Assembly (NCBI RefSeq): GCF_018399035.1
Contig: NZ_CP073760.1
Coordinates: 682,001 to 746,000, forward strand
Origin: Thiocapsa sp.
GTDB lineage: Bacteria; Pseudomonadota; Gammaproteobacteria; Chromatiales; Chromatiaceae
Direction of reading: 5' to 3'
DNA: 64,000 nt
Part shown: positions 3,971 through 27,681 of the stretch, in pieces
Numbering within the stretch: position 1 is the stretch's first letter
Layout of the letters: every line of letters starts with the position of its first letter
Position numbers and translations under genes: made by a program
Notes under the pieces: model-generated
What the model was told of the DNA's origin: nothing
Seen by the model: the letters and a program-made list of their open reading frames with translations, nothing else
Databases searched by the model: none

Positions 3971-4047
3971 CAGTCGAGCGCGACGCCCTTACAGCGGAGC
4001 CGGACGCTCGGTGGAGGCATTTCGATCAGCGGCCATGGGGGTGAGGT

Positions 4048-4290
4048 ATGACGACGACAGGCATCACGGAATTCCTGCTCTGGTGTGTCGGCATCAACTA
4101 CGGATTTCTGCTTCTCTGGTTCGGGGTTTTCGCCCTGGCCCACGACTGGATATATCGCCTGCACAGTCGATGGTTCAGGCTCTCGGTCGAGACCTTCGAC
4201 GCGATCCATTATGCGGGCATGGCCGCCTACAAGCTGGCCATCCTGTTGCTGAACCTGGCGCCGCTTCTCGCGATCTATCTGTCGGACTGA
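4048..4290 (+). CDS. small two-helix membrane protein, DUF6868 family
   Basis: 80-aa protein with two hydrophobic segments (about residues 7-30 and 55-77) and the motif WFxLSVETFDAIHYAGMAxYK between them, which I recognise as the DUF6868 family of unknown function. It has a GGTGAGGT sequence just upstream of the ATG. It stands alone between minus-strand genes, pointing the opposite way to brxF. Confidence 0.75.
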   Translation: MTTTGITEFLLWCVGINYGFLLLWFGVFALAHDWIYRLHSRWFRLSVETFDAIHYAGMAAYKLAILLLNLAPLLAIYLSD

Positions 4291-4376
4291 CGATGCCGGG
4301 CCGGGTACCGAACGCTCCCAGTCGGAGCGGGCGCCGCTCCGGGCATGACCGGCGACGCCGCGTGGGTTCCGCGAGG

Positions 4377-4637
4377 TCAGGACCAGCTACGCGCGATCTT
4401 GCCCGGACCCCGCTCCCAAAGCTGTCTCAGCAGGGCAGGGCGCCCCTCCAGCGCTGCGACCAGGGCATCTTCGGCGGGTTCGTCGCCGCTGCGTTCCGCC
4501 CAAGCGCCCGCGAACCCGGCGAGCCATGCGCGCTGGGCGTGCGCGTCGTCGAGCGGCGGGAACAGGTCGGGCGTCCGAGCGCCTTCGAGGACGCGACTGC
4601 CGGCGTCGAACCAATCAAACATTGTCGTTTCGCTCAT
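4377..4637 (-). CDS. small conserved-looking protein of unknown function
   Basis: 86-aa frame starting MSETTMFDWFDAG and ending GPGKIARSWS, acidic in its first half and with a helical C-terminal half. The overlapping frame extends further upstream, but the residues before MSET come from the terminator region, so I place the start here. It lies downstream of the terminator that closes the DNA-processing block and in the same direction. No family recognised. Confidence 0.5.
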   Translation of the reverse strand: MSETTMFDWFDAGSRVLEGARTPDLFPPLDDAHAQRAWLAGFAGAWAERSGDEPAEDALVAALEGRPALLRQLWERGPGKIARSWS

Positions 4638-4696
4638 CGGGCATCGTCGGTGAACAGCCGAAAGTCGCGCAGTATCGCGCGCGGATCGACGCCGCA

Positions 4697-4737
4697 ACAA
4701 AAAACCCACCGGCGCTTGCGCCCCGGCGGGTTTGCTT
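4697..4737 (-). terminator. Rho-independent terminator after the primase-like gene
   Basis: On the minus strand an AACCCGCCGG...CCGGTGGGTT stem with a GC-rich tip is followed immediately by TTTTTTG. It lies about 65 bp beyond the stop of the Toprim gene and would end the minus-strand transcript of the DNA-processing block. Confidence 0.75.
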
Positions 4738-4803
4738 GGGTTGACGGGTGGCCTCGCCGACCGCGCACCCGTCGGGGTGCGGGTCGACGAGCTCACCGCT
4801 TGG

Positions 4804-5850
4804 TCAGGCCACCGCGCGCAGGTCCAGCCGCCACAGGTCGCACCAGTCGAGGCTTTTGCTGCCCTCCGGGATTGGCCCTTTCGGTAAATGCAGCGCTACC
4901 CGGATGCCTAGGGCGACAAGCCGCTCGCGCAGCGCGAGGGCGGCCTGCTCTCCGGTCCCCGAGCGATCCAGATCGGCCCAGATCACGACCAGCTCGACCC
5001 CCGGCGGCGGCACGAACCGCTGCAGCAGGGTCGCGGAGATCCCGGCCCAGACCGGCATCGCGGTGCGCTGGCGGATCACCAGTGCGGTCTCGATCCCTTC
5101 GGTGATCCCCAGTGTCGGACCGGCCGGGTAGAGCCGCACGGCACCCCCGCAGAGCGTGCCGATCGGCGGCATCATCTTCTTCGGATGCGCCACCGGGGCC
5201 TTGCGTCCCGCGCGATCGAGATAGATCCGGTGCAGCGACACCGACCGACCCTCGGCATCCGACACCTTGGCCACAAGCGCCGGGAAGGTGCCGATGCGCG
5301 TCGTCTTGTCGTAGTAGGCGAGCCCCGGATGAAACCGGAGCACGCGCGAGTCGGGTTCGGCATCGATGCCGCGACGGGACAGATACCGCCGCAGCGGGAG
5401 TGCCTGTCGGTCGTCCGGGTCCAGGGTCTCGGACCAGACACGCCGAAGGGCGGCCTCTGCCATGGTCGGGTCTAGGTCCGTGCGTGCGACGACGACCGGT
5501 CTCGGTCGCGCCTCGATCGTTCGCGGGTGTCCCGTGTCGAGGCCCAGATCCCTGGCGACTGCCTCCAGGGTCTCGCGAAAGCCCCAAGCGTTGGCCCACA
5601 TCAGCAGCGCAAAACCGTCGCGACGGGGGCCGCAGCTGTTGCAGATCCCGCCGCCGGTTTCCGCCACATCGCGGAAGACCCGGAACCCGTCCGATCCGCC
5701 ATGGACCGGGCAGGGCACGTGGCGACCCGGACGGGCCAGTGCGGGCTCCAAGGTCGGCGCGAGCCGACCGAGGATGCCGATCCAACGTCCGCGGGCGTGC
5801 TCGCGGACGGTCTGTGCGTCGATGGTCATCTGCTGTCTCGAATGGTTCAT
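4804..5850 (-). CDS. zinc-ribbon/Toprim primase-like protein
   Basis: 348-aa protein. A zinc-binding CPVHG ... CNSCG motif near residues 47-75 resembles the ribbon of P4/DnaG-type primases. The C-terminal half has Toprim features: the glutamate-containing LGITEGIETAL and the acidic VVIWADLDRSG motif. Such proteins make or handle primers during replication of plasmids and ICEs. The start at 5850 was chosen because GGAGAC lies 8 nt upstream within the conserved leader; the frame extends 10 codons further. It is the last gene before the terminator at 4697-4737. Confidence 0.8.
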   Translation of the reverse strand: MNHSRQQMTIDAQTVREHARGRWIGILGRLAPTLEPALARPGRHVPCPVHGGSDGFRVFRDVAETGGGICNSCGPRRDGFALLMWANAWGFRETLEAVARDLGLDTGHPRTIEARPRPVVVARTDLDPTMAEAALRRVWSETLDPDDRQALPLRRYLSRRGIDAEPDSRVLRFHPGLAYYDKTTRIGTFPALVAKVSDAEGRSVSLHRIYLDRAGRKAPVAHPKKMMPPIGTLCGGAVRLYPAGPTLGITEGIETALVIRQRTAMPVWAGISATLLQRFVPPPGVELVVIWADLDRSGTGEQAALALRERLVALGIRVALHLPKGPIPEGSKSLDWCDLWRLDLRAVA

Positions 5851-5931
5851 GCGGTGTGTCTCCGAGGTCGGGCGGGGCACACCTCCCCGACGGGGAGATC
5901 CGCCCCGCGGGGTTGAGTGGATTGGGTTCCT
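5851..5931 (-). promoter_or_regulatory. structured 5' leader of the primase-like gene (candidate radC-motif RNA)
   Basis: GC-rich leader containing a CTCCCCG-TCGGGGAG hairpin, then GGTGTGCCCC, then the Shine-Dalgarno region GGAGACACACC. GGTGTG is exactly complementary to the CACACC beside the start codon. Same layout as the leaders at 6455, 8501, 11086, 12395 and 13568; see findings. Confidence 0.6.
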
Positions 5932-5950
5932 TGCGATGGCCGATCGACCG

Positions 5951-6454
5951 TCAGAGCACGCCGCGCTCGGCCATGGAGACGGCCTCGCCGTCGCCGACGA
6001 TCATGTGATCGATCACCCGCACGTCGAACAGCGACAGACCTTCGCGCAGTCGCTGGGTGAGCCGCAGATCGGCTTGGGATGGCTCGGGAACGCCCGAAGG
6101 GTGGTTGTGGGCGAAGATGACCGCCGCCGCACCGGTCTCCACCACCTTGCGCAAAACCTCTCGGGGATGGACGCTGGCCCCGTCGATCGTGCCGCGGAAC
6201 AGCTCCTCGTAGCGGATGACGCGATGGCGGTTGTCCAGATACAGGCAGGCGAAGACTTCGTAGTGCAGGCCGTAGAGCCGCAGCTTGAGATAGTCGCGCG
6301 TGGCCTCCGGGTTGGTCAGGCAGTCCTGCTTGACCAGGTACTTCTGCTCCAGGCAGCGGATGGCGTTGGCCACCAGCTCCCGATCGCTTTGCGGAAGGTC
6401 GGCCCGGCGCATGTGGTCGGGTTCCAGCGGCAGGGAGAGTTGGGGTTTCTTCAT
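5951..6454 (-). CDS. radC: RadC-like JAB/MPN-domain protein
   Basis: 167-aa protein with the JAB metalloprotease-like signature: an upstream Glu region (RYEELFRGT) and [16 protein letters not shown], giving the H-x-H ... D metal ligands. It covers the RadC catalytic domain without the N-terminal helix-hairpin-helix of chromosomal RadC, as is usual for mobile-element copies. The true cellular role of RadC proteins is unsettled. The start [10 protein letters not shown] at 6454 has GGAGACAC 6-13 nt upstream. It lies between the VWA gene and the primase-like gene on the same strand. Confidence 0.88.
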
Positions 6455-6545
6455 GGGTGGTGTCTCCGAGGTCGAGCGGGGAGACACGTCCCCCCGTGCA
6501 GGGAAGGGTGTCCCCGCGGGGTGGTGTGGAGCAGTGGGTTCGGCT
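6455..6545 (-). promoter_or_regulatory. structured 5' leader of radC (candidate radC-motif RNA)
   Basis: Contains an upstream arm GGGGACAC, a central GTGTCTCC and the ribosome-binding region GGAGACAC immediately before ATG. The central strand is perfectly complementary (8 bp) to the ribosome-binding region and largely complementary to the upstream arm. Being in front of radC is the classical location of the Rfam radC RNA motif. Confidence 0.65.
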
Positions 6546-6665
6546 GTGTTTCCGGCGGACCGGGCGGCCAGCGACCGCTTCTCGGAGATCCTCGACAGCG
6601 AGGATCCGGGGAACCGCGCTTGCGATGAACGCGCGAGCGCGCCCACGGCGAGCACACCTCCCGGA

Positions 6666-6698
6666 CCCGGACCGGCCGTCCGCGAAGGACGACCGGCC
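6666..6698 (-). terminator. GC-rich hairpin after the VWA gene
   Basis: Inverted repeat GGACCGGCCGTCC / GGACGACCGGCCC about 20-50 bp beyond the VWA stop. It has no U tract, so it may be a processing or attenuation hairpin rather than a simple terminator. Similar U-less hairpins follow the DUF3150 and exonuclease genes. Confidence 0.35.
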
Positions 6699-6718
6699 CG
6701 CGGGCCCGATGGCTGGGG

Positions 6719-8500
6719 TCAGGTCAGGAGAAGCTGCTCGGCAATCCCGAACAACGCGGTCTTCAGGTCCGCGACGGCGTCGATCCGCACGGCGATCGGG
6801 AACAGACGCCCGACGTCCACGGCGATGCCCACGCCGATCATCTCGATGCCGGCCGCGCCGGCACGCTCGATCAGGTCGGCGGCGGTGCACAGGTCGTCGG
6901 GTTGTCCGTCGGTGAGGGTGATGATCACCTTGCGCGTCTCGCGACGGGCCAGCAGATCCGCCGCGGCGAACCACAGCGCTCCGGTCATCGGCGTACCGCC
7001 GCGACCGCGTTGGACGAACGCCCCGACGCGGGACGCCACCCGCTCGCCGTGCGCCAGGATCCGGGTCACCTTCTCGGCGTGACCCTGTAGGCTCGGGAAC
7101 GCCGTCACCGCGCGCGAGACGCCTTTGACCGGCTCCAGGGCCAACGCCAGCGCCGCGGCCGCATCCAACGCGATCGCATCTCGGCCGGCGCTCATGGAGG
7201 AGGACAGATCCACCAGCAGGTGAATCGCCGTATTCGGCGCGATCGCCTGCTCCCGGATCCGGAACACCCGCGGGTCGCCGACACCGGCGCGGTGCAGGTG
7301 ACGTGGACTCAAGGATCGTCCGCGACGACCCGCTCGGGCGCGTTCCAGGGTGTGGGTCTCGATCAAGCCCTGCAGACGCGCCGTAAGCTTCGCGGAGTGT
7401 CCATTGACGCGGTCCAGGGCCATCCGTCCCGATCGCAAGTCCCCGACGTACGCCTCCGCTGCGGGAAGCAGCGTCGCCGGATCGCGGTGTTGCCCGTTCA
7501 GGGCTTGGGCGACCGACGCGAAGAGATCCTCCGGAAGGTCGGCGTCGGTGGCGGACAGCGCCTGCTGCAGTGCACGGCGGGCGTCGTTGCCTGCCGTGGT
7601 GCTGTCGGGGTCGTTGGTCTGCTCGGTCTCTCGACCCTGGTTCAGGCTCTGTTCGGACGAGCCGGTCCCGGAGTCGGCACTTCGACCGTCTTGGCCCTTT
7701 TCGTCCTCCTCGTCCCGATCCTCTCCTCCATCGTCTGCGGATGCGCCGTTCTCGGATCCTCCGTCTCCGGCATCATCCTGTTCGGCGTCGCGTTCACTCG
7801 TCCCGGAGCCCGCATCCGAGTCCGCATCGCTATCCCCGTCGGACGGCGAAGTGGGCTGGATCGGCGCCGGAGGCGGCGGCTCTTGCGATTCCTCCTCGAT
7901 CAACCCGACGATTCGCCGTGCGAGGTCGATCGACGCCGCCGTGTTCGCCAGCCTCGGGATCTCGGACATGAGTCCCTGCAGCCGATGGACGAAGCGCGGT
8001 TGGAAGACCGCCCGCATGGCGCGGTCGGCCTCCTTGGCATGGCTCGCCAGCGCCTCCTGCTTGCGGTAACGGTGCCGCGCCACGGCGAGGAACCCGTTGC
8101 CGAGGATGTCGGACGGACTCTCGGTCTCGCCCACTGCCGCCAGCGACCCGTCGGCCACCAAGGCGGCCACGATCGCATCGAGCGTCCTGCGGGTCCCCGG
8201 ATAGGCGGCGATCAACTCGCCCTCGATCCGGATGTCTTCGATGACGCCTTGAATGAACCGCTCCAGCGGCGTGTGTGCCCTCGGCAGGGCGAAGTCGGTG
8301 TAGCGGACATGGGCCGCTTCGTGGGCCAGATAGCCCCACGCCAGCGTCCGCGCCGTCGCGTCGGACCCGATTGCGGGAATGACGATCACGCCGCCGTCGG
8401 TGAGGGCCTGCGTGCCGCCGACCCTTACGGGGATACCGAACTTGCGCCCGTAGGCGGCGGCGACGATCGGCAGTGCGTCGGTCAAGGTCTTGGGTGTCAT
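6719..8500 (-). CDS. CobT-like von Willebrand factor A (VWA) domain protein
   Basis: 593 aa. The N-terminal half contains an HEAAHVRYTDF metallopeptidase-like motif near residue 80. A long acidic, low-complexity linker (about residues 245-320, rich in D, E, S and G) follows. The C-terminal VWA domain shows the MIDAS residues: DLSSS, the Thr in GGTPMTGAL and LTDGQPDD. VWA proteins of this form pair with CobS/MoxR-type AAA ATPases, and one is present in the same block (10132-11085). The pairing is expected from the family and supported by context; the substrate is unknown. The start at 8500 follows AGGAGCACACC. Confidence 0.85.
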   Translation of the reverse strand: MTPKTLTDALPIVAAAYGRKFGIPVRVGGTQALTDGGVIVIPAIGSDATARTLAWGYLAHEAAHVRYTDFALPRAHTPLERFIQGVIEDIRIEGELIAAYPGTRRTLDAIVAALVADGSLAAVGETESPSDILGNGFLAVARHRYRKQEALASHAKEADRAMRAVFQPRFVHRLQGLMSEIPRLANTAASIDLARRIVGLIEEESQEPPPPAPIQPTSPSDGDSDADSDAGSGTSERDAEQDDAGDGGSENGASADDGGEDRDEEDEKGQDGRSADSGTGSSEQSLNQGRETEQTNDPDSTTAGNDARRALQQALSATDADLPEDLFASVAQALNGQHRDPATLLPAAEAYVGDLRSGRMALDRVNGHSAKLTARLQGLIETHTLERARAGRRGRSLSPRHLHRAGVGDPRVFRIREQAIAPNTAIHLLVDLSSSMSAGRDAIALDAAAALALALEPVKGVSRAVTAFPSLQGHAEKVTRILAHGERVASRVGAFVQRGRGGTPMTGALWFAAADLLARRETRKVIITLTDGQPDDLCTAADLIERAGAAGIEMIGVGIAVDVGRLFPIAVRIDAVADLKTALFGIAEQLLLT

Positions 8501-8572
8501 GGTGTGCTCCTGAGTCAAGAAAGGGGCACACCACCCCGGCGGGGTCGGTGTACCCCGGTCGGGTGGATTGAT
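8501..8572 (-). promoter_or_regulatory. structured 5' leader of the VWA gene (candidate radC-motif RNA)
   Basis: Three-arm layout: upstream GGGGTACACC, central GGTGTGCCCC, and GGAGCACACC at the start codon. GGTGTGC/GCACACC is a perfect 7-bp pairing that would hide the start site; the upstream arm pairs with the same central strand with one G-U. A CCCCG-CC-GGGG hairpin lies between the first two arms. Confidence 0.65.
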
Positions 8573-8574
8573 GG

Positions 8575-8597
8575 GAAGCCGGCGCGGATGCGCCGGC
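8575..8597 (-). terminator. hairpin after the DUF3150 gene
   Basis: AGCCGGCGC / GCGCCGGCT inverted repeat just beyond the DUF3150 stop codon, without a U tract. Part of the pattern of 3' hairpin plus 5' leader between genes of this block. Confidence 0.35.
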
Positions 8598-8614
8598 TCG
8601 GGTTCAGGCTCGGA

Positions 8615-9691
8615 TCAGAAGAAGAAGCCCTCGACGTCCGCGACCGTCTCCTCGACGGGCCTGGCGCACGCGGGCTCCGGCGGGTGGTCTTGCATGTCGA
8701 TGTCGTCGACCTCGATCGTCACCTCGCTGAACAAGGCGTCCATCTCGGCCTCGAAGTCCATCGCGGACTGCACGGCGAGCGGCGATGCGGCCACCGTCGT
8801 TTTACGCTCGGTCGGCAGCGGGACCACCTCGGCCTCCGTGTCTTCCGGGTCGCTCGCGCTCGGCATGCCGCCCTGCTGAACCGCCCACTGGCCCGCCCCG
8901 TGGCGTGCCATGCGCTCGGCGTCCGCGAGGAGCAGCGCGAGCCCCATGCCTTCGTTGAAGATCGGGCCGTCGATCGGGCCGTCCGGCAGGCGCGCGAACC
9001 AGTCATCGAGGGTGTCCACCACCGGATGGATCCGCCGGTCCACGAAGGACAGGCAGGCGAGCTTCTCGCGGATGCGTCGGAAGGTGCCGAGCGCACGGCG
9101 ATGCAGCTTCTCCTTGCCCTCGAAGCTGCCTTCGAGCTCGCGGGCCATCTGCTCGACTTCGGCGAAGATGCCGTCGCCGAGCCCCTGGACCTCCTCCTCG
9201 AGCGTCCCCGGTTGCTCCGCCGGGGCGATCCGCACGATCTGGTAGCCGAAGCGCAGACGCGTACCGACGACCTCCGCCGGCTCGATGGCTCGACGGATCG
9301 GCTCCTCCCAGGCGGGCAGATTGGAGATCCACTCCTCCAACGCCCGGTCGTAACCGGCCAGGAAGGCGCGGGTTTCCGTGTCGAACTCCACCTTCAGCAC
9401 GGCCAAGCTCTCGGCGATCGACTCGGCATGGGCGTGCGGCACGGCAAACCCGCCGAGAAAGCGGGTTCCGACCTGCAGGCAGGTGCGCTCCGCACCCTTC
9501 TTGATGCGGTGAAAAATCCTCAAAGGCTCGGGGTCGCAGACCCGTTTGGATCCCAGGGAGACCAGCTCCTCGGGCGGGACCTCGGTGCCGAGCTTCAGGT
9601 CTTCGGCGCGCAGTTTCTTGCGTCCGGACCAGATGGCGACGTTCAACATGACCAGAGTGATCCGGTCGGTGATATGGGTGATCGTGTGCAT
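8615..9691 (-). CDS. DUF3150-family protein
   Basis: 358 aa, starting MHTITHITDRITLVMLNVAIWSG, which matches the opening of DUF3150 proteins found beside CobS/CobT-like genes in conjugative elements. The middle (about 190-250) is helical and charged. The C-terminus is acidic and ends EGFFF, close to the GFYF ends of two neighbours. An overlapping longer frame starts at 9721, but the GGGAG site 6-10 nt before 9691 favours this start. The upstream 80 bp can form a strong hairpin (TCCCGG/CCGGGA) around that site. Function unknown. Confidence 0.75.
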   Translation of the reverse strand: MHTITHITDRITLVMLNVAIWSGRKKLRAEDLKLGTEVPPEELVSLGSKRVCDPEPLRIFHRIKKGAERTCLQVGTRFLGGFAVPHAHAESIAESLAVLKVEFDTETRAFLAGYDRALEEWISNLPAWEEPIRRAIEPAEVVGTRLRFGYQIVRIAPAEQPGTLEEEVQGLGDGIFAEVEQMARELEGSFEGKEKLHRRALGTFRRIREKLACLSFVDRRIHPVVDTLDDWFARLPDGPIDGPIFNEGMGLALLLADAERMARHGAGQWAVQQGGMPSASDPEDTEAEVVPLPTERKTTVAASPLAVQSAMDFEAEMDALFSEVTIEVDDIDMQDHPPEPACARPVEETVADVEGFFF

Positions 9692-9775
9692 ACGTGGGCT
9701 CCCGGGCGAACCGGGACGCACGCGATCGCCGGGCGGCGAAGACGTGCGCCGCGGTCGGCCGTGTGTCGAGATCGG

Positions 9776-10135
9776 TTAGAAGTAAAACCCGTCGTCTTCG
9801 CCCAACAGGGCGGCGATGTCGCGGGTTGGTTTGGGGTCGGGCGTTGGCGCAGCGGGTACGACGGGAGTCACCCGCTGATCCGGACCGTCCCGAGACAGGA
9901 GCACGACAGCCCCGGTCGCATCGATGTCCGCCCGGCCGACGGCGACGTAGCCCTTGAGCGTCTTCTCGCGTGCCCGCTCGAGTGCGACCTGCAACGGCTT
10001 GGATTGGGTTTGCCGCAGACGACCGGCCGGTCCCCAACGGATCTGCGCCGTCCCGTTGCCGAGATCGGCGTAGGCCCATTCCTTGGCGGTCCCGTCCCCG
10101 TGCTCGTAGCGATAGAGCCGATACAGCGGACTCAT
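9776..10135 (-). CDS. WGR-like domain protein with GFYF tail
   Basis: 119 aa. The core contains KEWAYADLGNGTAQIRWGPAG and RQTQSKP, a pattern like the WGR domain (K-W ... W-G-R ... Q), although the canonical Arg is replaced by Pro. A proline-rich linker leads to an acidic end, GEDDGFYF. It overlaps the AAA ATPase stop by 4 bp (ATGA), so translation is probably coupled. WGR domains bind nucleic acid or proteins in PARPs and DNA-repair proteins; the role here is inferred only from context. Confidence 0.6.
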   Translation of the reverse strand: MSPLYRLYRYEHGDGTAKEWAYADLGNGTAQIRWGPAGRLRQTQSKPLQVALERAREKTLKGYVAVGRADIDATGAVVLLSRDGPDQRVTPVVPAAPTPDPKPTRDIAALLGEDDGFYF

Positions 10136-11085
10136 GGTTTCGCACCCCAGTAGTCGCCGAAGACATCGGCGGCGATCCGGTGGATCGCCTCGCGCTGCTC
10201 CGGCTCCGCGCGGGCGGTCAAGGATTGCTCCAAGGCATACTCGAAGACGTTCGGTGCGCCTTTGAACGCCAGACTCAGCGTGGCCCAGCGCACCAGGGTT
10301 CGGGTGCTCATGGTCACGGTCAGCTCTCCGGATTCGGTACCGGCACCCAGGAACAGGCGCCGCACCTCCTCGGCCACGAGGATCATCTTCGCGATGATCT
10401 CCGCGGGCAGCTTCGGGACCGCCGCGGCGATCAGATCCTGTTCCGTCTCGGGCTCCGGATAGCCGACCTGCACCACCCGGAAGCGGTCCATGAAGGCGAG
10501 GTTCTGTCGCAGCACCCCTTGGTAGAGCCCCGAGCGGTCGCCGGCGCCGGCGGTATTGCCGGTCGCGACGACCCGGAACTTCGGATGGGGCCGGATCACC
10601 TCCCCGCCGTTCTCCGCGATCACCAGCGGATGGCCCTCGAGGATGTCGTTCAGACCCGCCAACTCGGCCGGGTCCATCAGGTCGCTCTCGTTGAGCACCA
10701 GGAGGTGCCCGTCGCGCGCCGCCGTGGACAGGGGTCCGTGGACGAAACGGGTGCTGCCATCGACCAATACGAACTGGCCGACCAGGGCCGCCAGCTCCAT
10801 GCGTCCGTGGCAGGTCACCGACTGCACCGGCCAGGCGAGCCGGGCGGCAATCTGCAGGATCAGGCTGGTCTTGCCCGATCCGGTCGGTCCGGTCAGGAAC
10901 AGGCCGTCGCCGCCGGCATCGTGCAGGAAGGCCAGCACGTCGCGCAGCAGCTCGGGTCTGAAGACATAGGGCTTGCGCACCGGAACGTGCGGGTGGGTGT
11001 CGTCGGCGAAACCGATCACTTCCAGACCCGGACGGGCCTTGACGTTGAAGGTGGTCGCGACATCGAAACGTTGGCTGGCGGTCAT
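10132..11085 (-). CDS. CobS/MoxR-like AAA+ ATPase
   Basis: 317-aa ATPase with Walker A GPTGSGKT (about residue 64), a Walker B region LLVLNESD, sensor 1 VVATGNTAG and an Arg-finger-rich C-terminus. The family is that of CobS, CbbQ and MoxR, which remodel or load partners together with VWA proteins such as 6719-8500. The start at 11085 (MTASQRFD) lies behind a leader with GGAGACC; the open frame continues upstream for 118 codons across the leader, which is not credible coding sequence. SXT/IncC-type elements carry an equivalent cobS gene. Confidence 0.85.
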   Translation of the reverse strand: MTASQRFDVATTFNVKARPGLEVIGFADDTHPHVPVRKPYVFRPELLRDVLAFLHDAGGDGLFLTGPTGSGKTSLILQIAARLAWPVQSVTCHGRMELAALVGQFVLVDGSTRFVHGPLSTAARDGHLLVLNESDLMDPAELAGLNDILEGHPLVIAENGGEVIRPHPKFRVVATGNTAGAGDRSGLYQGVLRQNLAFMDRFRVVQVGYPEPETEQDLIAAAVPKLPAEIIAKMILVAEEVRRLFLGAGTESGELTVTMSTRTLVRWATLSLAFKGAPNVFEYALEQSLTARAEPEQREAIHRIAADVFGDYWGAKP

Positions 11086-11175
11086 GGTGTGGTCTCCATC
11101 GGGTGGGTGAACCCGAGGAGACGCACGCCTCCCGTGGGGGGAGCGCAGGTCTCCCCGGGGGGCTTGGGTTACGGA
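11086..11175 (-). promoter_or_regulatory. structured 5' leader of the AAA ATPase gene (candidate radC-motif RNA)
   Basis: Upstream arm GGGGAGACC, central GCGTCTCC, then a perfect TCGGGT/ACCCGA hairpin, then TGGAGACCACACC and ATG. GTCTCC can pair with either GGAGAC copy. Nearly identical over its 3' half to the leader of the bet gene (13568-13660). Confidence 0.65.
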
Positions 11176-11377
11176 GGGTTGGGGTTGGCTGTGTCGCCGA
11201 GAGTCGGCCCGTTCAGCTCGCGGAGTCGTCATGTCCGGCAGGGACATCACGTCATTCGGCTGTCCGATCGCGACCGCGGCTCTGTCGGTCGGGACGGGAC
11301 AGCCGCCGGCCGGGGCCGGGGTGTCTTGGAATGGATCCGCGGATCCGGGGCCCGTCCTTGAGCCTGGATCCGCATGG

Positions 11378-12394
11378 CTAGAAGTAAAAGCCCATGTCGG
11401 TCTCGGTGGCGTGCCGCAGCGCTTCGACCTCGGCCTCACTGAACGGGACGCTTGCCGTGCCGTCCTTCAGGGTCGTGATCCTGACCCGGTCGGAGGACGC
11501 GCGGCGATAGCGCTCCAAGCGCATCGGATCGACATCGGGTGCAACGTCCGCGAGGGCGGCCTTGTAGTCGATCGCTCCGGCCACGGCGTAGCGCAGGACC
11601 CGCAGCCCGGCGCTCTCGCCCATCGCGAAGTCGCCCAGCAGGGCCACCAGTTGCGACTCGATGCCGTCCAGACCCGACCTCAGGGTCTTGAGCGCGGCAT
11701 CGACCTTGGCCTTCTCGGCCGCGAGCCTGCGGTACTCCCCGGACAGCCGCGTCCAGGTCGCCAGCTCCGTGCCGGACGGGGTGTAGAGATCCCGCTCGGG
11801 ATCGCGTTCGGGCTCCTGCTTCTTCTCCACGCGCGTCCGAAACTCCAGGCAGCGCGGCACCAGGGTGTCCCGGATGAAGGTCTCGTCGCGCGGGATGCGA
11901 AAGTCGACCGCGATGCCCGGCGCCCGATGAAACACCAGCCAGCCTTCGGCGGCGTCGGCGACATGGATCTGACACTGGACCTGATGCCAATAGAGGCGGT
12001 AAGCCTCCGAGGCGACCCCGTGCTCCAGGATCTGCAGATAGGTGCTCTCGTGCGGCACCTTGAGCTCGACCGGGATGCCGTTGTTGTCCAGGCCGTCGAA
12101 GGACGCGCGGATGACGGGATGGGTGTCGGACTCGCCGCAGAGCGGCAGCAGCAAGGTGTCGTGGCGCTCCTCGAAGCCCCGACGGGCGGTGTCTTCGAGC
12201 GAGGTGCCGCGGCGCACGACCGGGTTGCCGCTCAAGTCTTCGGGCAACAGCATCCCGATCTTCTCCGCCCACAGCCGCCACGGCGTCTTGTAGGGCGAGA
12301 CGCCGAGAACGGCCGCGGCATCCGAGGCCGAGACCCCGGCGTTACGCCAGACGTGCCACTCGGGGGTGCGTTGGGTGATGTCGATGACGTGCAT
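11378..12394 (-). CDS. YqaJ-type viral recombinase / lambda-exonuclease family nuclease
   Basis: 338 aa. The N-terminal TPEWHVWRNAGVSASDAAAVLG and SPYKTPWRLW segments are typical of YqaJ-like exonucleases. PD-(D/E)XK-type residues appear as ...ASFDGLDNNG and PVELKVP (about residues 105-125). Such an enzyme degrades one strand of duplex DNA to expose 3' single strands for a RecT/Bet annealase, which is the next gene upstream (12500-13567). The C-terminus ends TETDMGFYF. The start MHVIDIT at 12394 has AGGAGCACC upstream. Confidence 0.85.
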   Translation of the reverse strand: MHVIDITQRTPEWHVWRNAGVSASDAAAVLGVSPYKTPWRLWAEKIGMLLPEDLSGNPVVRRGTSLEDTARRGFEERHDTLLLPLCGESDTHPVIRASFDGLDNNGIPVELKVPHESTYLQILEHGVASEAYRLYWHQVQCQIHVADAAEGWLVFHRAPGIAVDFRIPRDETFIRDTLVPRCLEFRTRVEKKQEPERDPERDLYTPSGTELATWTRLSGEYRRLAAEKAKVDAALKTLRSGLDGIESQLVALLGDFAMGESAGLRVLRYAVAGAIDYKAALADVAPDVDPMRLERYRRASSDRVRITTLKDGTASVPFSEAEVEALRHATETDMGFYF

Positions 12395-12466
12395 GGGGTG
12401 CTCCTGAACAGAACGGGGCACCGTCCCCGAGGGGCAGCGCGTGCCCCCAGGGGTGGATGATCGGAA
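12395..12466 (-). promoter_or_regulatory. structured 5' leader of the exonuclease gene (candidate radC-motif RNA)
   Basis: Upstream arm GGGGGCAC, central GGTGCCCC, ribosome-binding arm GGAGCACC. The central strand pairs with GGGGCAC (7 bp) or with GCACC at the start codon. A CCCCT-CGGGG hairpin separates the first two arms. Confidence 0.6.
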
Positions 12467-12467
12467 T

Positions 12468-12493
12468 CCGATGACCGCCGTCCGTGGCGGTCA
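12468..12493 (-). terminator. hairpin after the bet gene
   Basis: Perfect ATGACCGCC/GGCGGTCAT inverted repeat a few bases beyond the bet stop codon (12500), without a U tract. Confidence 0.4.
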
Positions 12494-12499
12494 TGGGAG

Positions 12500-13567
12500 C
12501 TAGGCGGCTTCGGCGACGGGCGCCTCGGCGGCCTTGGCTTTCCTCGTGACGACCGACAACGCGGCCGCCTGCTCCAACTCGGCGAGGGCGTAGGCGAGAT
12601 GCACCCCGTTGAAACGGGCGCGGGCATAGTCCTCGGCCTGACCCCAAGCGCCGACCTTGCAGGCCCGCTCCACGAGCGTGGCGACCTGCTTGGCCACCTG
12701 CGCGTCGATGACGGCATCCCGCTGTGCGGGATCCGCCGGGGCGGTTGCGGAGACGGAGGTCTCGTCGGTTCCGTTTGGCCGAGCGGTGTCGACCGACGCG
12801 GTGTCGACGACTGTCGGACTCACCCGCGGTTGGATCGTGGTCGGTTGCGCGGTGACGATCTCGCCCTCGATCACGGCCCCGTCGACGGGGGCATGGCCCT
12901 CGATGGCCTTGCCTTCCATCTCCTCGGCGGTGTAGCCGGCTTCCTCGGGAAAGGCCGCCCGCAGGCTCGCGGCTTTGGCGCATTTGAGAAGCTGTCCCTT
13001 CGGACGCTTCTGCCACATCTCGTTCGGCACCTCCGCGCGGCCTTGTCGGGCATAGGTCTCCTCCCAGAAGACCATCTCGGAGAAGGGGCAGCGCACCCCG
13101 TTGACCATCCGATAGACCGTCGTTTCGGCCCACTCGGGGAAGGTCACGGTGACGGCGACCTCGGTCCATTTGTCGTCGCGCTTCACCGTCCCGGTGAAGG
13201 TCTTGGTCAGCTCCGGTCCGAACTGCGGCGAGTCGAGCCCGGCCCACAGGCCGGTGCGCGCCGCCGTGATCTGGACCTCGGCGATGCCGGGCCACACAGT
13301 TTCGACATAGCGCCCGAGCGCGGTCGACCACATGGAGACGACGTGCACCGGGCGCTTCATCACGTCCAGACCGCGCGCCTGGCAATAGCGCACGGCAAGG
13401 ATCACGCCCTCAGGGGTCTTGGCGTTGGGGAAGATCGAGTCGGCGAGCACCGCCCAGGTTCCGGCGTCCAGGCCGATCTCGGCGAGGACGCTCGGGGCGA
13501 CCGGGAGGCGGCTGGGGACGAGCGAGCTGGTCAAGGCTTGAGTCGGGTTGCTGCGGCGTGTAGCCAT
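12500..13567 (-). CDS. bet: RecT/Bet-family single-strand annealing recombinase
   Basis: 355 aa with the recognisable phage recombination protein Bet core: FPNAKTPEGVILAVRYCQARGLDV, RPVHVVSMW, WPGIAEVQITAARTG and LLKCAKAASLRAAFPEE (residues about 45-215). The remaining third is alanine- and threonine-rich linker. Bet binds single-stranded DNA and anneals complementary strands; with the YqaJ-type nuclease it forms a two-gene recombination pair like those of lambda and SXT. The start MATRRSNP at 13567 follows GGAGACCACGCC. It is the first gene of the minus-strand block. Confidence 0.88.
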   Translation of the reverse strand: MATRRSNPTQALTSSLVPSRLPVAPSVLAEIGLDAGTWAVLADSIFPNAKTPEGVILAVRYCQARGLDVMKRPVHVVSMWSTALGRYVETVWPGIAEVQITAARTGLWAGLDSPQFGPELTKTFTGTVKRDDKWTEVAVTVTFPEWAETTVYRMVNGVRCPFSEMVFWEETYARQGRAEVPNEMWQKRPKGQLLKCAKAASLRAAFPEEAGYTAEEMEGKAIEGHAPVDGAVIEGEIVTAQPTTIQPRVSPTVVDTASVDTARPNGTDETSVSATAPADPAQRDAVIDAQVAKQVATLVERACKVGAWGQAEDYARARFNGVHLAYALAELEQAAALSVVTRKAKAAEAPVAEAA

Positions 13568-13660
13568 GGCGTGGTCTCCATCGGGTGGGTGAACCCGAGG
13601 AGACGCACCTCTCCCCCGGGAGCGGCAGTCTCCCCGGGACGGGTGAGCCGGCAGGGCCGG
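13568..13660 (-). promoter_or_regulatory. structured 5' leader of bet (candidate radC-motif RNA)
   Basis: Upstream arm GGGGAGAC, central GCGTCTCC, inner hairpin TCGGGT/ACCCGA, then GGAGACCACGCC-ATG. Its 3' half is almost base-for-base the same as the leader at 11086-11175, showing that the elements are related by descent, not chance. Confidence 0.65.
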
Positions 13661-14204
13661 CGGTTGGTTTCGGCTGTGTTCGGGCAAACGCCCGGGGTCA
13701 GCGGCCCCGTCGGTCGGTCTCGCACATGGAGAACCGAGCGGATCGGTCGACAATCGCCTGTCCGCTGCGGGCCGTGCGGGCAACGGCCGCGGTCGGAGCG
13801 CAGGGGACAGGGGAATCGATGGGGTTCGGAGGAGGGCGTGCGGACGCATGGAGCGACACGGCGCGGTGTCGATCCTCGGGGTAAGGTCGGTGGGTTGCGG
13901 AGCGTTCGATGGAGACGGACGCGCGATCGGCACGGTTGGCCGTCGTCGGCACCCTGAAGGCGTGTGGCCTTCGCGACTGCATGCGATCAGGTCGACTTGG
14001 TTTCGGCTGTTACGTCCGGGCGGACGTTTCGGTTCGCAGGGGAGCCGCGGCCAGCTACCGCTTGTGTATTCCAGCGCAGGCGCACGGCGATTGCAAGGCC
14101 GTGATCGGGTCGAAAAGCAGCGTTTCGGAGGTCTTTTCCCCGGTGCGAGCGCGTTCGGGTCCGGGCTAGGCTGAAGACTCCGATCAGCCGCAAAGAGCAT
14201 CCCC
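13661..14204. other. intergenic region between divergent bet and DUF1845 genes
   Basis: About 540 bp without a convincing gene. It must hold the promoters of both the minus-strand DNA-processing block and the plus-strand DUF1845 gene. Several short frames occur on both strands but none has a family signature. Confidence 0.4.
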
Positions 14205-14825
14205 ATGCCCGCCCCGAGAGGTTACAGCCGCCCCGAATTCCACGTCCCCGTCACCCTGCAATCGGCACATGCCCACCGCGTCGTCGGCCGCAGCCTGATC
14301 CGTGTCGCGCGCGCCCTCTACGGGATCGACGTGGTGCTCCACGCGATCGGCGATGCCCGGCAGATGGAGGAGGTCGAGGGCCTGGTCGATGGCCTGCTCG
14401 GCGCCTTCGCCCAACGCTTGGACGAAGAGATCGCCCGCGTGGAGGCGTTGAAGAGCGCCAACGGCATCGCCGCCGTGCCGCGCTACACCAACCCGAGCCG
14501 GGTCACCTTCCGCATCTCCTCGCCCCAGCTCTCCCAATACGCCAACCTGATCCAGGCGCTGGACCGACTCACCGTCGGCATCGACACCCTCTGGCTGAGC
14601 GGCCTCTTCAGCAATCGTCAGCGCGCCGATGCGGTCTATACCTGGCGCAACGAGCTCCTCTCCGTCGGTCGACGCATCGTCGAAATCGAAGCGCGTGCCC
14701 GCGATTTCGCGCGGCGCCAAGGCAAGGAGGAGGAGATCGCCGCCGGGGATGCCGCGGCGAACTCCGTGGTGGTGTTGGACGAGGAGGGCGAGTTGGCGGG
14801 AGACGAGGAGGAGGTTGCCACGTAA
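14205..14825 (+). CDS. DUF1845 / PFL_4669-family conjugative-element protein (AcaB-like)
   Basis: 206 aa beginning MPAPRGYSRPEFHVPVTLQSAHAHRVVGRSL-type sequence, with YTNPSRVTFRISSPQLSQYANLIQALDRL in the centre and an acidic tail. I recognise the DUF1845 family, seen in ICEs (PFL_4669) and as AcaB, an activator of IncC transfer genes. A regulatory role is therefore plausible but inferred. It is divergent from bet. Confidence 0.7.
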   Translation: MPAPRGYSRPEFHVPVTLQSAHAHRVVGRSLIRVARALYGIDVVLHAIGDARQMEEVEGLVDGLLGAFAQRLDEEIARVEALKSANGIAAVPRYTNPSRVTFRISSPQLSQYANLIQALDRLTVGIDTLWLSGLFSNRQRADAVYTWRNELLSVGRRIVEIEARARDFARRQGKEEEIAAGDAAANSVVVLDEEGELAGDEEEVAT

Positions 14826-17874: not shown

Positions 17875-18705
17875 AGTGCGGCCTGGCAAGGCCGCGTGTT
17901 CTAGCGGGTGGGAATCCCGCCTGGGTAATCGTGCGCCGCGAGCCCAGTATCGAGCCTTGCGGCGTGGACGGCAACGGACACGTCGATGCGTAGGCACGAA
18001 AGCAGGCGAGGTGCAAAGGTAACGGGTGGAGCCGACCTTGAAGGTGTTGAGCCCCGTAAAGAACAGTCGGGAGTGCCGACGGGTTTGTCCCTCCGGCAGG
18101 CAACAATCCGTGTCGCGGTATGGCGTGCGATGCGGGTACTCCTCGGGGTCCGAGGCCGTATCGAGCCTGACATCGAGAGCATGCGGTAACCAGGGAGATC
18201 CACGCATCGGTCCGCTGGAGGCGGGCACCCGCGAACAAGTTAAAAGCGAGGACGTGGGCGGCGTTGCGTGGAAGTCGGAGCCATCCATACGAGCGTTGAC
18301 GCCCGGTAACGCGGGTCGAGCAAAGGGGTGGCGGCCTGAGACAACGCGAGGGTGAAACACGGCCCTACACCGTGAGGACTCTGTCCGTGGCAACGACGCT
18401 CGCGCGTTTCACACAGTCGGCGTGCCCCGTCCTTGGGCGGTGCGTGCGAAGCCCTGCGCTGCGGCGGGTGCCGTCAATGCGGAGTCGACAGGGCGCCGGA
18501 TCGCTCCCCTGTTCCACTGTGAAAGACTCGGGCTGGGAGCCGGATGGTGTAACACTCCAAGTCCGGTTCTGCGAGGGGCCGGGAACGAGCCGTCGCATGG
18601 CAGAGATATTGTGGCACCGCCGGGAAACCAGGCGGCAACAGAGAACACGAACTTCTGTCTACACGACGGTGAGAACCCGGCCTACTCTCCGTTTCGCCTA
18701 ATCCC
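17875..18705 (+). ncRNA. ORF-less group II intron
   Basis: Begins with GTGCG, carries the domain I-like TTCTAGCGGGTGGGAATCCC segment also found in the intron at 27961-29975, and has a convincing domain V at 18537-18569 (GAGCCGGATG ... AGTCCGGTTC). A domain VI-like tail follows, with GGCACCGCCGGGAAACC and CGGCCTACTC near the end, paralleling the tail of the second intron. No reverse transcriptase is encoded in its roughly 830 nt, so mobility would need a maturase in trans. Exact ends are uncertain by some bases. Confidence 0.6.
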
Positions 18706-20766: not shown

Positions 20767-22399
20767 CCGCCCCATGCACCAAACCTCCTGGATCCTCCTC
20801 GACACCGAAACCTCCGGTATCAAGGCGCCGGTCTACGTTGTGGAGCTGGCCGCCCAGCACATGCGTGGCTGGACACCGGAGGGTGCGCCATTTCGGTGCC
20901 TGCTCAATCACAACGCCGAGATTCCGCCCGAGGCCTCCCGCGTCAACGGCTACACCCGCGAGATCCTGGAGCGCGACGGCGAGCCGCCGCGTCAGGTCTA
21001 CGACGCCTTTGCCCGATACGTCGGGGAACGGCCGCTGGTCGCCTACAACCTGCGCTACGACCTCGACGAGGTGCTGCGCCCCGAATGGGACCGTCTCGGC
21101 ATCGCGCCGATCGGGCGTCCCGGCTTCTGCGCCCTCAACCTGACCCAGCGTCTGCTGGACCCGGTTCCTGCCGGGAACCACAAGCTGCAGACGCTGCGTC
21201 AGTACTACCGGCTGCCCGAGCGCGGCGCGCATACCGCGCCGGGGGATGTGGAGACGGTCGCCGACCTGATGCGGCAGGTCTTGCGCCCCCTGGCCGACGC
21301 GCGCGGGCTGGGGAGCTGGGAGGCGATCAGCGCCTTTGCCGCCGCGCCTTGGTTCCCCTCGCGCATCGCCTTCGGCAAGTACAAGGGGCGCCTGTTTCGC
21401 GAAGCGCTGGAGGATGAGGCGCTGCACGACTGGCTGCACTGGCTGGCGAGCGCCGACAACCCGCGCAGTGCCGAGATGGGCCGGTGGTATTTGGATCGGC
21501 TCCACGCGGAAGTCGGGGTTGCCGAGGCCGAAGCGGTGGTGATCGAGGTCGGGCCGGGCGACAGCGGCGAGCTGGTGCTGTTCCGCGATCCGGAGCGTGA
21601 GACGCTGCGCCAATGCGTGGCCGGCGCCCGCGCCCGACTGGCGGATCTGGAGGCGGAGTACACCCGCGAGCATCACGGCGTCGAGGTGCTCCGGTTCGAG
21701 CTGTTTACGCGGCTGCGCCCGCATTACGAGCGACGCGATGCACTGCGGCTGCAGGTCCAATACCGGCGCAGGTTTCTCGACACCCTGATCCTCGAGGGCG
21801 AGGAAGAGGCCGAGGCGCTCGCGCCCGACTACGCGGAGGCCAAGGCCGAGACCGAGCGCGAGTACGAGGAGACGGCCACGCAGGCGGCCGACACCCACGC
21901 CCTGAGCGAGGAGGAAGCGCAGGAGCTGAAGGGCGTTTACAAGAAGCTCGTCCGCCTCTACCACCCCGACCGCTATGCCCAGGAGCCGGAAAAGCAGGCG
22001 ATTTACGAACGCCTGACGCAGGAGGTCAACACGGCGCGCGATCGCGGCGATATCGAGCGCCTGCGTGAGATCGCCGAGGATCCCAACGGCTTTCTGCTGC
22101 GTCAGGGGCTGGCCAGCCTCGATTTCAGCGACGAGGCGGAGCTGGCCAAGCTGCGGGCGCTCTACGCGACGCTGCAGGAGCGCATCTTCGGTCTGTTGGA
22201 CGAGCTCGAGCGGCTGCGCGAGAGCGGCGACTACGAACTTTACCTGCTCAGCCGGAAACGGCCCGCGTTCGTCCAGGAGATCGCGGACCAGCAGGCCGAG
22301 GTGATCGGCGCCGAGATCGCCGAGCTGGAGGCCGAGGCCGCGCAGTTGGCGGAGGAGATCGAGGGTTTGACCGGTGCCGACGACCCGTTCGGCGACTAG
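20756..22399 (+). CDS. DEDDh exonuclease with ExoX-like and J-domain segments
   Basis: 547 aa in four parts. Residues about 10-180: DnaQ-like 3'-5' exonuclease with LLDTETSG, NLRYDLDE and HTAPGDVETVADL giving the DEDDh residues. About 200-245: FGKYKGRLF ... WLHWLAS, as in exonuclease X-type proteins. About 250-400: coiled-coil-rich. About 395-440: a J-domain core, KKLVRLYHPDRY with the HPD motif. The end is helical and finishes GADDPFGD. Fusion of a nuclease to a chaperone-recruiting J domain is unusual. A start at 20774 is also possible. Translationally coupled to the LRR gene. Confidence 0.85.
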   Translation: MKSNRPMHQTSWILLDTETSGIKAPVYVVELAAQHMRGWTPEGAPFRCLLNHNAEIPPEASRVNGYTREILERDGEPPRQVYDAFARYVGERPLVAYNLRYDLDEVLRPEWDRLGIAPIGRPGFCALNLTQRLLDPVPAGNHKLQTLRQYYRLPERGAHTAPGDVETVADLMRQVLRPLADARGLGSWEAISAFAAAPWFPSRIAFGKYKGRLFREALEDEALHDWLHWLASADNPRSAEMGRWYLDRLHAEVGVAEAEAVVIEVGPGDSGELVLFRDPERETLRQCVAGARARLADLEAEYTREHHGVEVLRFELFTRLRPHYERRDALRLQVQYRRRFLDTLILEGEEEAEALAPDYAEAKAETEREYEETATQAADTHALSEEEAQELKGVYKKLVRLYHPDRYAQEPEKQAIYERLTQEVNTARDRGDIERLREIAEDPNGFLLRQGLASLDFSDEAELAKLRALYATLQERIFGLLDELERLRESGDYELYLLSRKRPAFVQEIADQQAEVIGAEIAELEAEAAQLAEEIEGLTGADDPFGD

Positions 22400-26070: not shown

Positions 26071-26209
26071 CTCTTTACTCCTCAATCTTGATGATCAAAC
26101 ACTAAAATTATTGGCGTGTCCCTAGCTGGACCACGATCTTCGCCTCGCTATCCGCCATCCATGGCTACCCCTAGGGGGCTGTCCCACTTGTCGGATTTCG
26201 GTCGGGGAA

Positions 26210-27681
26210 GGCTCTCCCGGATTTCAGGGGAACGTATGGGTTATTTGAAAACAAGTACTTAAGCCAAATCCAGCCGTACACGACAACCCCAAAAAATGGT
26301 TGAGCGCTCGACCGACAAGCGCTTGTTTCATCCGCGAGAGGTCCCGAACCGGGCGTATCCATCGAGATCCAAGTACACTCTCTGGTAGAGGTGTTTGAGG
26401 CTCGTCATTCCATAGCAGCGGCGCTTGATGACTTTGATCTTATTGTTGAGCCCCTCCACGAATCCACTGGTCCGGCGGCCGACGAAATAATTGGTGATCT
26501 CCTCGAAGCGGGTCTCGAGCGTGCCGAGGAAACGATCGAAACACGTGAGCTTGCGGTTGGTGACGCGGCGCATCCAACCGCGCAGTTTACGTTTGCTTTG
26601 ACCTTTCGACAGGCGACTGTCGTAGATGGCGGTGAGCGCCTCGCAGGCTTCGTACGCTTCTTTGAGTTTCGGGGAGTGGGCGAAGATGCGATTGAGGAGG
26701 CGACGCTCATCGGCATTCAGGTCGGCGCGACGATGCCGCAGGACCCAATGCGCGTTCTTGAGCTCATCAATGGACGCTTTGGAGAGCGTGCGACGCAGCC
26801 GCTTGAACTCGCGCTTGCGCAGGGTTTCGAGTCCCTCGCGATACAAGCGAGCGACATGAAAGCGGTCCGCGCAGATGAGGACGCGTTTGCCGAACACGGC
26901 CTTCGCGGCCCCGATGAAGCCTTGGTAAAGGTCCGAGCAGACAACCTCGACCGTGCGCCGTAAGCGCTTGGGAATGCTTCGAAAAACGCCTCCACGACGG
27001 CCTTGGTCCGTGCCGGGAGCAGGGCGATGACGCGGAGCCGATCATTCACGTAGGCACTGATCACGACGACAAAATCGCGATGGCCCTTCTTCAACGCAAT
27101 CTCGTCGATGCCGATGACCTCCAGCGTCTCGATCCCGTTCCAATCGACCTCGGGCTCGATGCGGCGATCCAGAATGCCCTGCAGCGCATCGACACCGACG
27201 GCATGCTTGAGACTCACATCCTCGAGCGTACTGTTGATCAACTCGAGCAGCATTTGCTGCTCGAAGGCCTTCGTAACCGAGGCGCGTGGCGAATACCACG
27301 ACAGCATCTGACTCGTCGTCGGCCGCCCCTCGCAGGAGTGGCACTGATAGCGTTTGGGTCGCAAAACAAGGACGGTGTGGTAGTCGAACACCGGTAAGTG
27401 CCGCAGCTTGATCTCTTGACCAAGCCCGTAGCCATGGTCGATCGGCTTGCCGCAACGGTGACAGTGCGTCCCCTCGAGGGTGCTGTGGACGTGGATCTCA
27501 AGCGTTCTGTGCTCACCGAGCACAACGCGATCAATGGCGATATCAGGCAGGTTCAGCAGGGTCTGAAGGGTCTCTGTGTCGAACATCATGATGAGCCGCG
27601 TCCGAATGGGGTTCTGCCGGCAGGCAAGGTTCAGGTTGTTGATTTACAAAATATCATAACCCTATGAGATCCTAAAGAGCC
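26210..27681 (-). mobile_element. ISL3-family insertion sequence, 1472 bp, with 8-bp target duplication
   Basis: Ends carry related inverted repeats (GGCTCT...GGATTTCA on the left; GGCTCT...GGATCTCA read inward from the right). TCGGGGAA is duplicated at 26202-26209 and 27682-27689, the 8-bp duplication typical of ISL3. The transposase inside has one frameshift. The clean duplication shows the element has not been rearranged since insertion. Confidence 0.85.
26328..27589 (-). pseudogene. tnp: ISL3-family transposase split by a one-base deletion
   Basis: First frame (27589 to about 26980): zinc-finger HCHRCGKP and CHSCEG, then VIGIDEIALKKGHRDFVVVIS. Second frame (to 26328): VLICADRFHVARLYREGLE, and YFVGRRTSGFVEGLNNKIK. 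The frames join perfectly if the run of five A at 26982-26986 (T on the coding strand) had one more base, giving FFRSIPKRLRRTVEVV. Either a recent inactivating deletion or a sequencing error in a homopolymer. Confidence 0.85.

Follow-up and report, generated by a model that had tools for sequence, protein, structure and literature searches.

We analysed a 64,000-nucleotide stretch of the Thiocapsa sp. genome (assembly GCF_018399035.1, contig NZ_CP073760.1, positions 682,001 to 746,000), referred to here as the window. It contains a minus-strand gene block (4804-13567) encoding a primase-like protein, RadC, a VWA protein, a DUF3150 protein, a 119-aa protein (p119), a CbbQ/MoxR-like AAA protein, a YqaJ exonuclease and RecT. 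We found that every gene of the block except p119 is preceded by a leader, seven in all, in which one C-rich strand has two possible partners. Predicted folds and comparisons with relatives suggest that the block is under translational control through a common shape, not a common sequence.

Read on the minus strand, the leaders consist of alternating C- and G-rich strands in the order C1-G1-C2-G2-C3-SD arm, where SD is the Shine-Dalgarno sequence, and all arms lie within ~80 nt of the ATG. There are two options for C3: pairing with G1 leaves the SD free, and pairing with the SD arm hides it. The predicted minimum free energy (MFE) fold hides the SD in five of the seven leaders (radC, VWA, AAA, exonuclease and recT) and is the G1:C3 state in the primase and DUF3150 leaders. 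The original prediction, made from the letters of the window, had placed such a switch before the genes starting at 5850, 6454, 8500, 11085, 12394 and 13567. These starts are right, and they belong to the primase-like, radC, VWA, AAA, YqaJ exonuclease and RecT genes. The quoted arms of the radC, VWA, exonuclease and AAA leaders are present on the minus strand where it put them. The weaker upstream pairing that it saw in the primase leader corresponds to a short G1 arm (GCGGGGC, 7 bp). The proposed masking position over the SD and the block-wide use hold as well, and we add a seventh leader, that of the DUF3150 gene (9691). None of the window leaders matched any of the 4227 models of Rfam 15. 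Table 1 gives the matches to our own model, R2, for which the G1:C3 and C2:G2 pairs were specified by hand.

Table 1. Leaders and genes of the block (positions in the window).
Feature	Position	Strand	Arms or Pfam assignment	R2 match	Predicted MFE fold or remark
Primase leader	5848..5912	-	G1 5902-5908, C2 5892-5897, G2 5883-5888, C3 5872-5883, SD arm 5853-5863, ATG 5850-5848	5848-5916, 52.6 bits	G1:C3 state
radC leader	6452..6524	-	C1 6517-6522, G1 6507-6515, C2 6501-6505, G2 6490-6495, C3 6478-6487, SD arm 6460-6467	54.8 bits	SD hidden
VWA leader	8498..8566	-	C1 8557-8564, G1 8547-8556, C2 8541-8545, G2 8533-8537, C3 8523-8532, SD arm 8501-8510	58.6 bits	SD hidden
DUF3150 leader	9689..9756	-	G1 9743-9752, C2 9734-9740, G2 9726-9731, C3 9715-9724, SD arm 9693-9704	none at E<=1	G1:C3 state; diverged; homologous leaders in relatives
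AAA leader	11083..11165	-	G1 11148-11156, C2 11138-11143, G2 11129-11133, C3 11117-11124, SD arm 11091-11098	33.9 bits	SD hidden; extra hairpin in C3-SD loop
Exonuclease leader	12392..12457	-	C1 12450-12455, G1 12441-12448, C2 12431-12435, G2 12425-12428, C3 12415-12422, SD arm 12397-12404	51.9 bits	C1:G2, G1:C2, C3:SD
recT leader	13565..13644	-	C1 13636-13643, G1 13628-13635, C2 13618-13622, G2 13611-13617, C3 13599-13606, SD arm 13573-13579	31.5 bits	SD hidden; extra loop hairpin
Primase-like gene	4804..5850	-	DUF7146, Toprim_3, Zn_Ribbon_Prim
radC gene	5951..6454	-	RadC, 5.6e-44
VWA gene	6719..8500	-	CobT_C
DUF3150 gene	8615..9691	-	DUF3150, 4.2e-93
p119 (119 aa)	9776..10135	-	no Pfam family		start overlaps end of AAA; no leader
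AAA (CbbQ/MoxR-like) gene	10132..11085	-	AAA_5, CbbQ_C
YqaJ exonuclease gene	11378..12394	-	YqaJ, 4.3e-21
RecT annealing protein gene	12500..13567	-	RecT, 1e-12

Related loci were collected with the AAA protein. At E<=1e-60, it had matches in 32 of the 210 genomes searched within the order, and 48 regions around matches were fetched. Of 129 confirmed loci from named genomes, we retained the best 80. We added an IncC plasmid, a Comamonas plasmid and an Escherichia coli chromosomal element. The last has the gene order ssb-bet-hyp-exo-AAA-hyp-DUF3150-hyp-VWA-radC-hyp-primase, parallel to the window, and because of this order we call it SXT/R391-like.

C3 tracks both of its partners. From 569 distinct upstream sequences, 300 were kept at 75% identity, and 281 of those had a recognisable SD. 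Stems were scored by a simple ungapped rule that allowed one mismatch, with gene starts chosen by script. When C3 was set from G1 only and then scored against SD arms, cognate arms scored above permuted ones, with z of 14.2 over all leaders, 12.6 within gene family and 9.6 within locus (225 of 268 non-redundant block leaders with a G1:C3 stem score of at least 18; 43 were dropped). When C3 was set from the SD arm only (223 of 272 block leaders with a C3:SD score of at least 12) and scored against G1 regions, z was 21.1, 17.9 and 13.4, respectively. The permutations leave some relatedness, and those done within family or within locus are more stringent. The leaderless p119, a negative control in the G1-first test, gave z of -1.0 (n=9). 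Chromosomal control genes (106 genes from 20 stretches of two genomes), treated by the same rules, gave 0.4 (35 of 106 genes) and -0.1 (51 of 106). These stretches replaced a control drawn from other open reading frames (ORFs) of the same loci (z of 7.6, n=85), because these loci carry further leaders.

Counting leaders gave the same contrast. Both complementarities scored at least 14 in 141 of 272 block leaders and in 12 of 106 controls. The numbers, of the same 272 and 106, were 97 and 5 at a score of at least 16, 60 and 1 at 18, and 38 and 0 at 20. The mutually exclusive three-strand pairing with compensatory change that had been proposed for the window is thus supported: C3 follows its own G1 and its own SD arm.

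An alignment (A4) of the best 150 of 250 R2 matches (E<=0.05, 69 loci) had the G1:C3 and C2:G2 columns 86.2% paired, with 160 double-changed cells compared to 61.6 in shuffles (0 of 500 as high). A4 was fitted to this structure and its count is biased in that direction; the permutation tests are independent of A4. The A of GGAG faces C in 74 of 150 leaders and U in 63, so that the SD pairing often includes one A.C mismatch. This choice of bases is as expected for a strand with two partners, since C would serve G1 best and U would serve both. RNAalifold on a MAFFT alignment gave only three pairs, and the model built on it (R1) was not used.

Every one of the 150 A4 rows is on the AAA-gene strand, and 147 of them lead into an ORF of 60 aa or more. 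These numbers bear on whether the leaders are DNA-level inverted repeats, either protein sites or mobile repeats. They are indeed GC-rich inverted repeats in several copies, but the copies differ in sequence with pairing kept, and 150 of 150 rows are anchored to strand and AUG (the model itself ends in ATG). We consider a DNA-level role extremely improbable. Mean identity between leaders was 0.478 for pairs from the same element (181 pairs), 0.462 for pairs from the same gene family (1608) and 0.442 for other pairs (10211), in a set from which leaders more than 75% alike had been removed, which lowers all three means. Leaders of one element are thus hardly more alike than unrelated ones, and a common trans factor would have to read shape.

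By eye and with R2, we found the same leader architecture before many block genes in Chromatiaceae, Methylococcales (including Methylomonas), Methyloversatilis, Shewanella, Edwardsiella, Alcanivorax, Comamonas, a Desulfuromonadales metagenome-assembled genome and Desulfovibrio sp. A2. The arms vary together. Triple compensation is seen in the AAA leader of the IncC plasmid L084 (GGGCGCA / TGGTGCGCC / GGAGCGCACC), the AAA leader of the Edwardsiella plasmid L151 (GGGTACACC / GGTGTACCC / GGAGTACACC) and the VWA leader of Methyloversatilis (GGGGCAAG / GGTTTGCCCC / GGAGCAAACC). In the SXT-like element, R2 matched only the radC leader at E<=0.05, and the others, including those of bet and hyp4644, were recognised by eye and from predicted folds; the bet leader contains GGGAGT/ACTCCC/GGAGTC.

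The 5.73-Mb Thiocapsa genome has a second, diverged copy of the block at 3.26 Mb (locus L006, 6974-14921), and all nine R2 matches at E<=1 in this genome fell inside the two copies (150 of 2798 first-look candidates were scored). Restricting the search to the window (E<=1) brought up three further weak matches, two of them plus-strand echoes of leaders and one beyond the block, at 26165-26238 (14.7 bits). With strict filters and counting the Thiocapsa genome itself, at least 4 of 398 genomes over the phylum and at least 15 of 369 over the class had a match at E<=0.001. Among 18 regions from outside the order sample and locus L186, several hold groups of leaders for which tblastn gave radC as the sole block gene or no block gene at all, and we take these to be of the ICEclc/PFGI type; this fits the STY4534-family replication proteins of integrative and conjugative elements (ICEs) annotated in related plasmid loci. 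In these 19 loci, 82 of 86 R2 matches open an ORF of at least 50 aa. One leader (L241 7388, G112:C1:3105387) stands before an exonuclease gene beside recT, with no other block gene in the 14-kb region by tblastn. From sequence and covariation, we regard it as shown that C3 has two mutually exclusive pairings, that these are placed over the SD, that the leaders lie on the gene strand and are linked to these genes, and that they are spread among elements.

We propose that the leaders are default-OFF, cis-acting translational attenuators, each with its own anti-sequestor, used throughout the element, and we put the probability of this at about 70%. In the closed state, C1-G1-C2-G2 would form one hairpin and C3 would be free to take the SD arm, in a hairpin that would shut the ribosome-binding site nearly up to the AUG. 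In the open state, G1, a mimic of the SD arm, would capture C3 in a long hairpin that encloses C2:G2, which would leave the SD single-stranded. The closed state would be the default, and the kinetic default too, because C1-G1-C2-G2 is transcribed first. Switching would come about by keeping C1-G1-C2-G2 from forming. In two-segment energy estimates the closed state is the more stable one, with a median advantage of 2.1 kcal/mol over 223 leaders that had been picked for C3:SD.

Several results weigh against this proposal. The pairings and the switch rest on covariation and predicted folds. The energy estimate is rough and scatters widely (standard deviation 6.8 kcal/mol), and by it the DUF3150 and primase leaders are open on average. 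Among block leaders, 131 of 272 fell below 14 for the two complementarities. In A4, the C1:G2 and G1:C2 pairs had 100 double-changed cells compared to 66 in shuffles, and their pair and type counts were not above shuffles. A first, looser test, in which SD arms were scored against the whole upstream region, gave z of -4.6 overall and -1.3 for p119, and from -0.1 to -1.9 within the seven genes that have leaders; a second gave -1.2 to -5.0 within genes. We think that C-rich strands elsewhere also match GGAG, which would explain the small within-gene signal, and the loose test was replaced by tests with C3 fixed independently. L160-L165 had no R2 match at E<=0.05, the AAA gene of L043 has no recognisable leader, and some genes have a terminator-like hairpin in place of a leader. 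Finally, C3:SD was weak at fixed columns of A4 (56.3% paired; no pair-level measure exceeded shuffles, and sliding by one column gave a better score). We ascribe this to differences in pairing register among leaders. With the register chosen for each leader, SD positions 5-9, beyond GGAG, were 69.8% paired with 388 double-changed cells (n=227). Arms permuted within gene family, with the register also chosen, had means of 63.0% and 335, and none of 300 permutations was as high.

It is possible, although we judge it unlikely, that only C3:SD matters. In this case the leader would be a fixed attenuator that sets low translation of strongly transcribed genes, and G1 would be a by-product of an upstream hairpin, with no switching. 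The closed state is usually favoured, the SXT bet leader is described, in the review cited below, as an attenuator and not a switch, and some IncC G1 arms match C3 over only ~5 bp (hypx, by eye). However, C3 is followed by G1 no less strongly than by the SD arm, and the 74 of 150 leaders with a C opposite the A of GGAG keep the pair with G1 at the cost of the mismatch with the SD.

Translational coupling has a smaller chance still. A ribosome ending at the upstream stop codon would cover C1, force G1:C3 and open the next SD, which would make translation of each gene depend on that of its neighbour. The genes are co-oriented and close together, and in compact elements the stop codon touches C1 (TAA-CCC in L084). 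In contrast, the distance from stop to G1 has a median of 51 nt (5th-95th percentile 7-232, 151 leaders), in many cases beyond a ribosome footprint, and hyp4644 of L186, which lies beside a divergent gene and is apparently first in its operon, also has a leader.

We find it very unlikely that G1:C3 is an intrinsic terminator and the leader a transcription attenuator. G1:C3 is followed by a long T-run in some VWA leaders (L006, L043, L049), and at least four consecutive T follow C3 in 35 of 186 leaders. But a run of at least five was found in only 14 of 186, and a terminator leaves the complementarity to the SD arm unexplained. Promoters between leader and start codon, through which, according to the original prediction, the leaders would escape transcription, seem unlikely because the arms are so close to the ATG and because the SXT recombination genes are described in PMC4344509 as one large operon starting at s089. 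A promoter scan was uninformative, with 0 found and 0.5 expected by chance.

What would trigger the proposed switch? Besides the SD and AUG, no unpaired position was strongly conserved in the alignment, and there was no conserved ligand-binding core, strong conservation being confined to the C/G arm cores, the SD and the ATG. A small-molecule pocket is thus unlikely. We expect a structure-reading protein of the element or host, or the translation or transcription machinery itself. A bolder version, which we hold to be improbable, is a translational regulon by RNA shape, in which one structure-reading trans factor, perhaps the Ssb or RecT/Bet of the block, would switch every leader at once in the presence of single-stranded DNA. 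The autoregulation of T4 gp32 is an analogy for such a factor. In other element families, the radC RNA would then be an optional sensor module before the same switch.

The original prediction had also suggested that the leaders may belong to the Rfam radC RNA (RF01754). Membership did not hold: cmscan gave no match in the window at the gathering score (40 bits), none in 4000-14500 at E<=10 and none in L084, L085 and L058 at E<=5. The leaders do occur with the same kinds of genes and elements as this RNA, which also stands 5' of DNA-processing genes of proteobacterial mobile elements (by Pfam for the genes here). It differs in its 149-nt structure, and we give membership practically no chance. 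What did stand is the association. Elsewhere, RF01754 is a 149-nt module 5' of the leader. L228, fetched for its leaders, has three radC RNAs; in the stretch 10226-9981, on the minus strand, the radC RNA is directly 5' of a leader. Nine more came from the radC side, in L243 and in six of seven plasmid records similar to one radC RNA (L367-L372); a search for the family was positive in 1 of 274 genomes. An R2 match (E<=1) adjoins 10 of these 12 radC RNAs (two of three in L228, eight of nine others), in a small, non-random sample in which L370 and L371 are near-identical. The leader starts 7-33 nt beyond the radC RNA, and one case in L228 overlaps it by 34 nt. Over the loci of the nine other radC RNAs, R2 gave 29 matches in 49 kb (both strands), and some of these are counts of the same match where loci overlap. 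For one of the two misses (L372 3612-3759) a leader can be seen ahead of the next gene; the other (L228 13476-13331) is accompanied only by leader-like sequence that has no start nearby. Most leaders in our set have no radC RNA. From the 10 of 12 we infer that the two are separate modules, often in tandem. The radC RNA, listed as a candidate structured RNA in a table of Weinberg 2010 (PMC2864571), would thereby gain a physical output stage and hence a route to its function. A 15-base radC-core pattern gave at least 120 stretches in viral contigs and was judged unspecific.

Other features of the block and its surroundings are as follows. A TraI_2 relaxase-type gene (3.7e-88) lies ~40 kb away from the block. 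In the second block copy, the VWA leader is terminator-like (GGCGCAG..CTGCGCC, then T7). VWA leaders of L043, L045, L049, L050 and L052 have a hairpin and then a long T-run, as if the switch had turned into a terminator. Three unrelated neighbours in the window, the exonuclease (11378), p119 (9776) and DUF3150 (8615) proteins, have a common aromatic C-terminal tag (GFYF, GFYF and GFFF). A C-terminal F is found in 38 of 41 exonuclease, 41 of 42 p119 and 44 of 46 DUF3150 proteins, near-identical copies counted, and the SXT-like, IncC and Comamonas versions end in SFYF, NYYF, FYW, FF, FYI and similar. By analogy with the SSB tip, the tag may be a docking peptide that the three have in common. The ending -AA, found in all 37 RecT proteins that have a stop and in 12 of 20 primase-like proteins, recalls an ssrA-like degron. 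Group II intron matches lie at 17911-18158 (+), 27961-28112 (-) and 29684-29920 (-); the first follows closely on the start of an exonuclease-like ORF (17577), which is found again near 20775.

We found no paper on the radC RNA or on RNA motifs in ICEs, in a search in which subscription literature was mostly outside the scope, so absence from print is unproven. RNA-structure and translation terms do not occur in the IncA/C AcaCD paper (PMC4207636). Since the literature, as far as it is covered by the review PMC4542580, shows only the bet attenuator, we regard the leaders as a new family within a known kind of RNA, matching no Rfam model and with one previously reported member, the SXT bet leader.

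The leaders can be compared to several known systems. An intrinsic-terminator attenuator would have a U-tract after the hairpin, which only a minority has (the 14 of 186 leaders above). Attenuators of the cat/erm type mask the SD by an alternative hairpin and respond to a drug-stalled ribosome on a leader peptide. The leaders share such predicted masking.

In the expression platforms of translational riboswitches, three strands form a sequestor and an anti-sequestor by mutually exclusive pairing, and the SD is released. Judged from the sequence, in which both G1 and the SD arm follow C3, the leaders have this layout. Unlike riboswitches, they have no conserved aptamer core and their arms vary freely.

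A further such system is the translational attenuator before SXT bet, for which reduced translation was reported (2013 work as cited in PMC4542580) and which was also noted in IncA/C plasmids (same review). It belongs to the homologous operon, which in SXT/R391 ICEs and IncA/C plasmids provides recombination functions that generate hybrid elements (PMC4542580). The bet leader of the SXT-like ICE has G1, C3 and SD arms, and a hairpin that hides the SD is predicted both there and in the recT leader of the window, the published attenuator being compared by its description in the review. That report, as the review gives it, is for bet only. In contrast, the leaders here precede most genes of the block, in many element families, and have an anti-sequestor strand. 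On this evidence the bet attenuator would belong to a large class of RNAs, which extends to distant Proteobacteria and to other families of elements.

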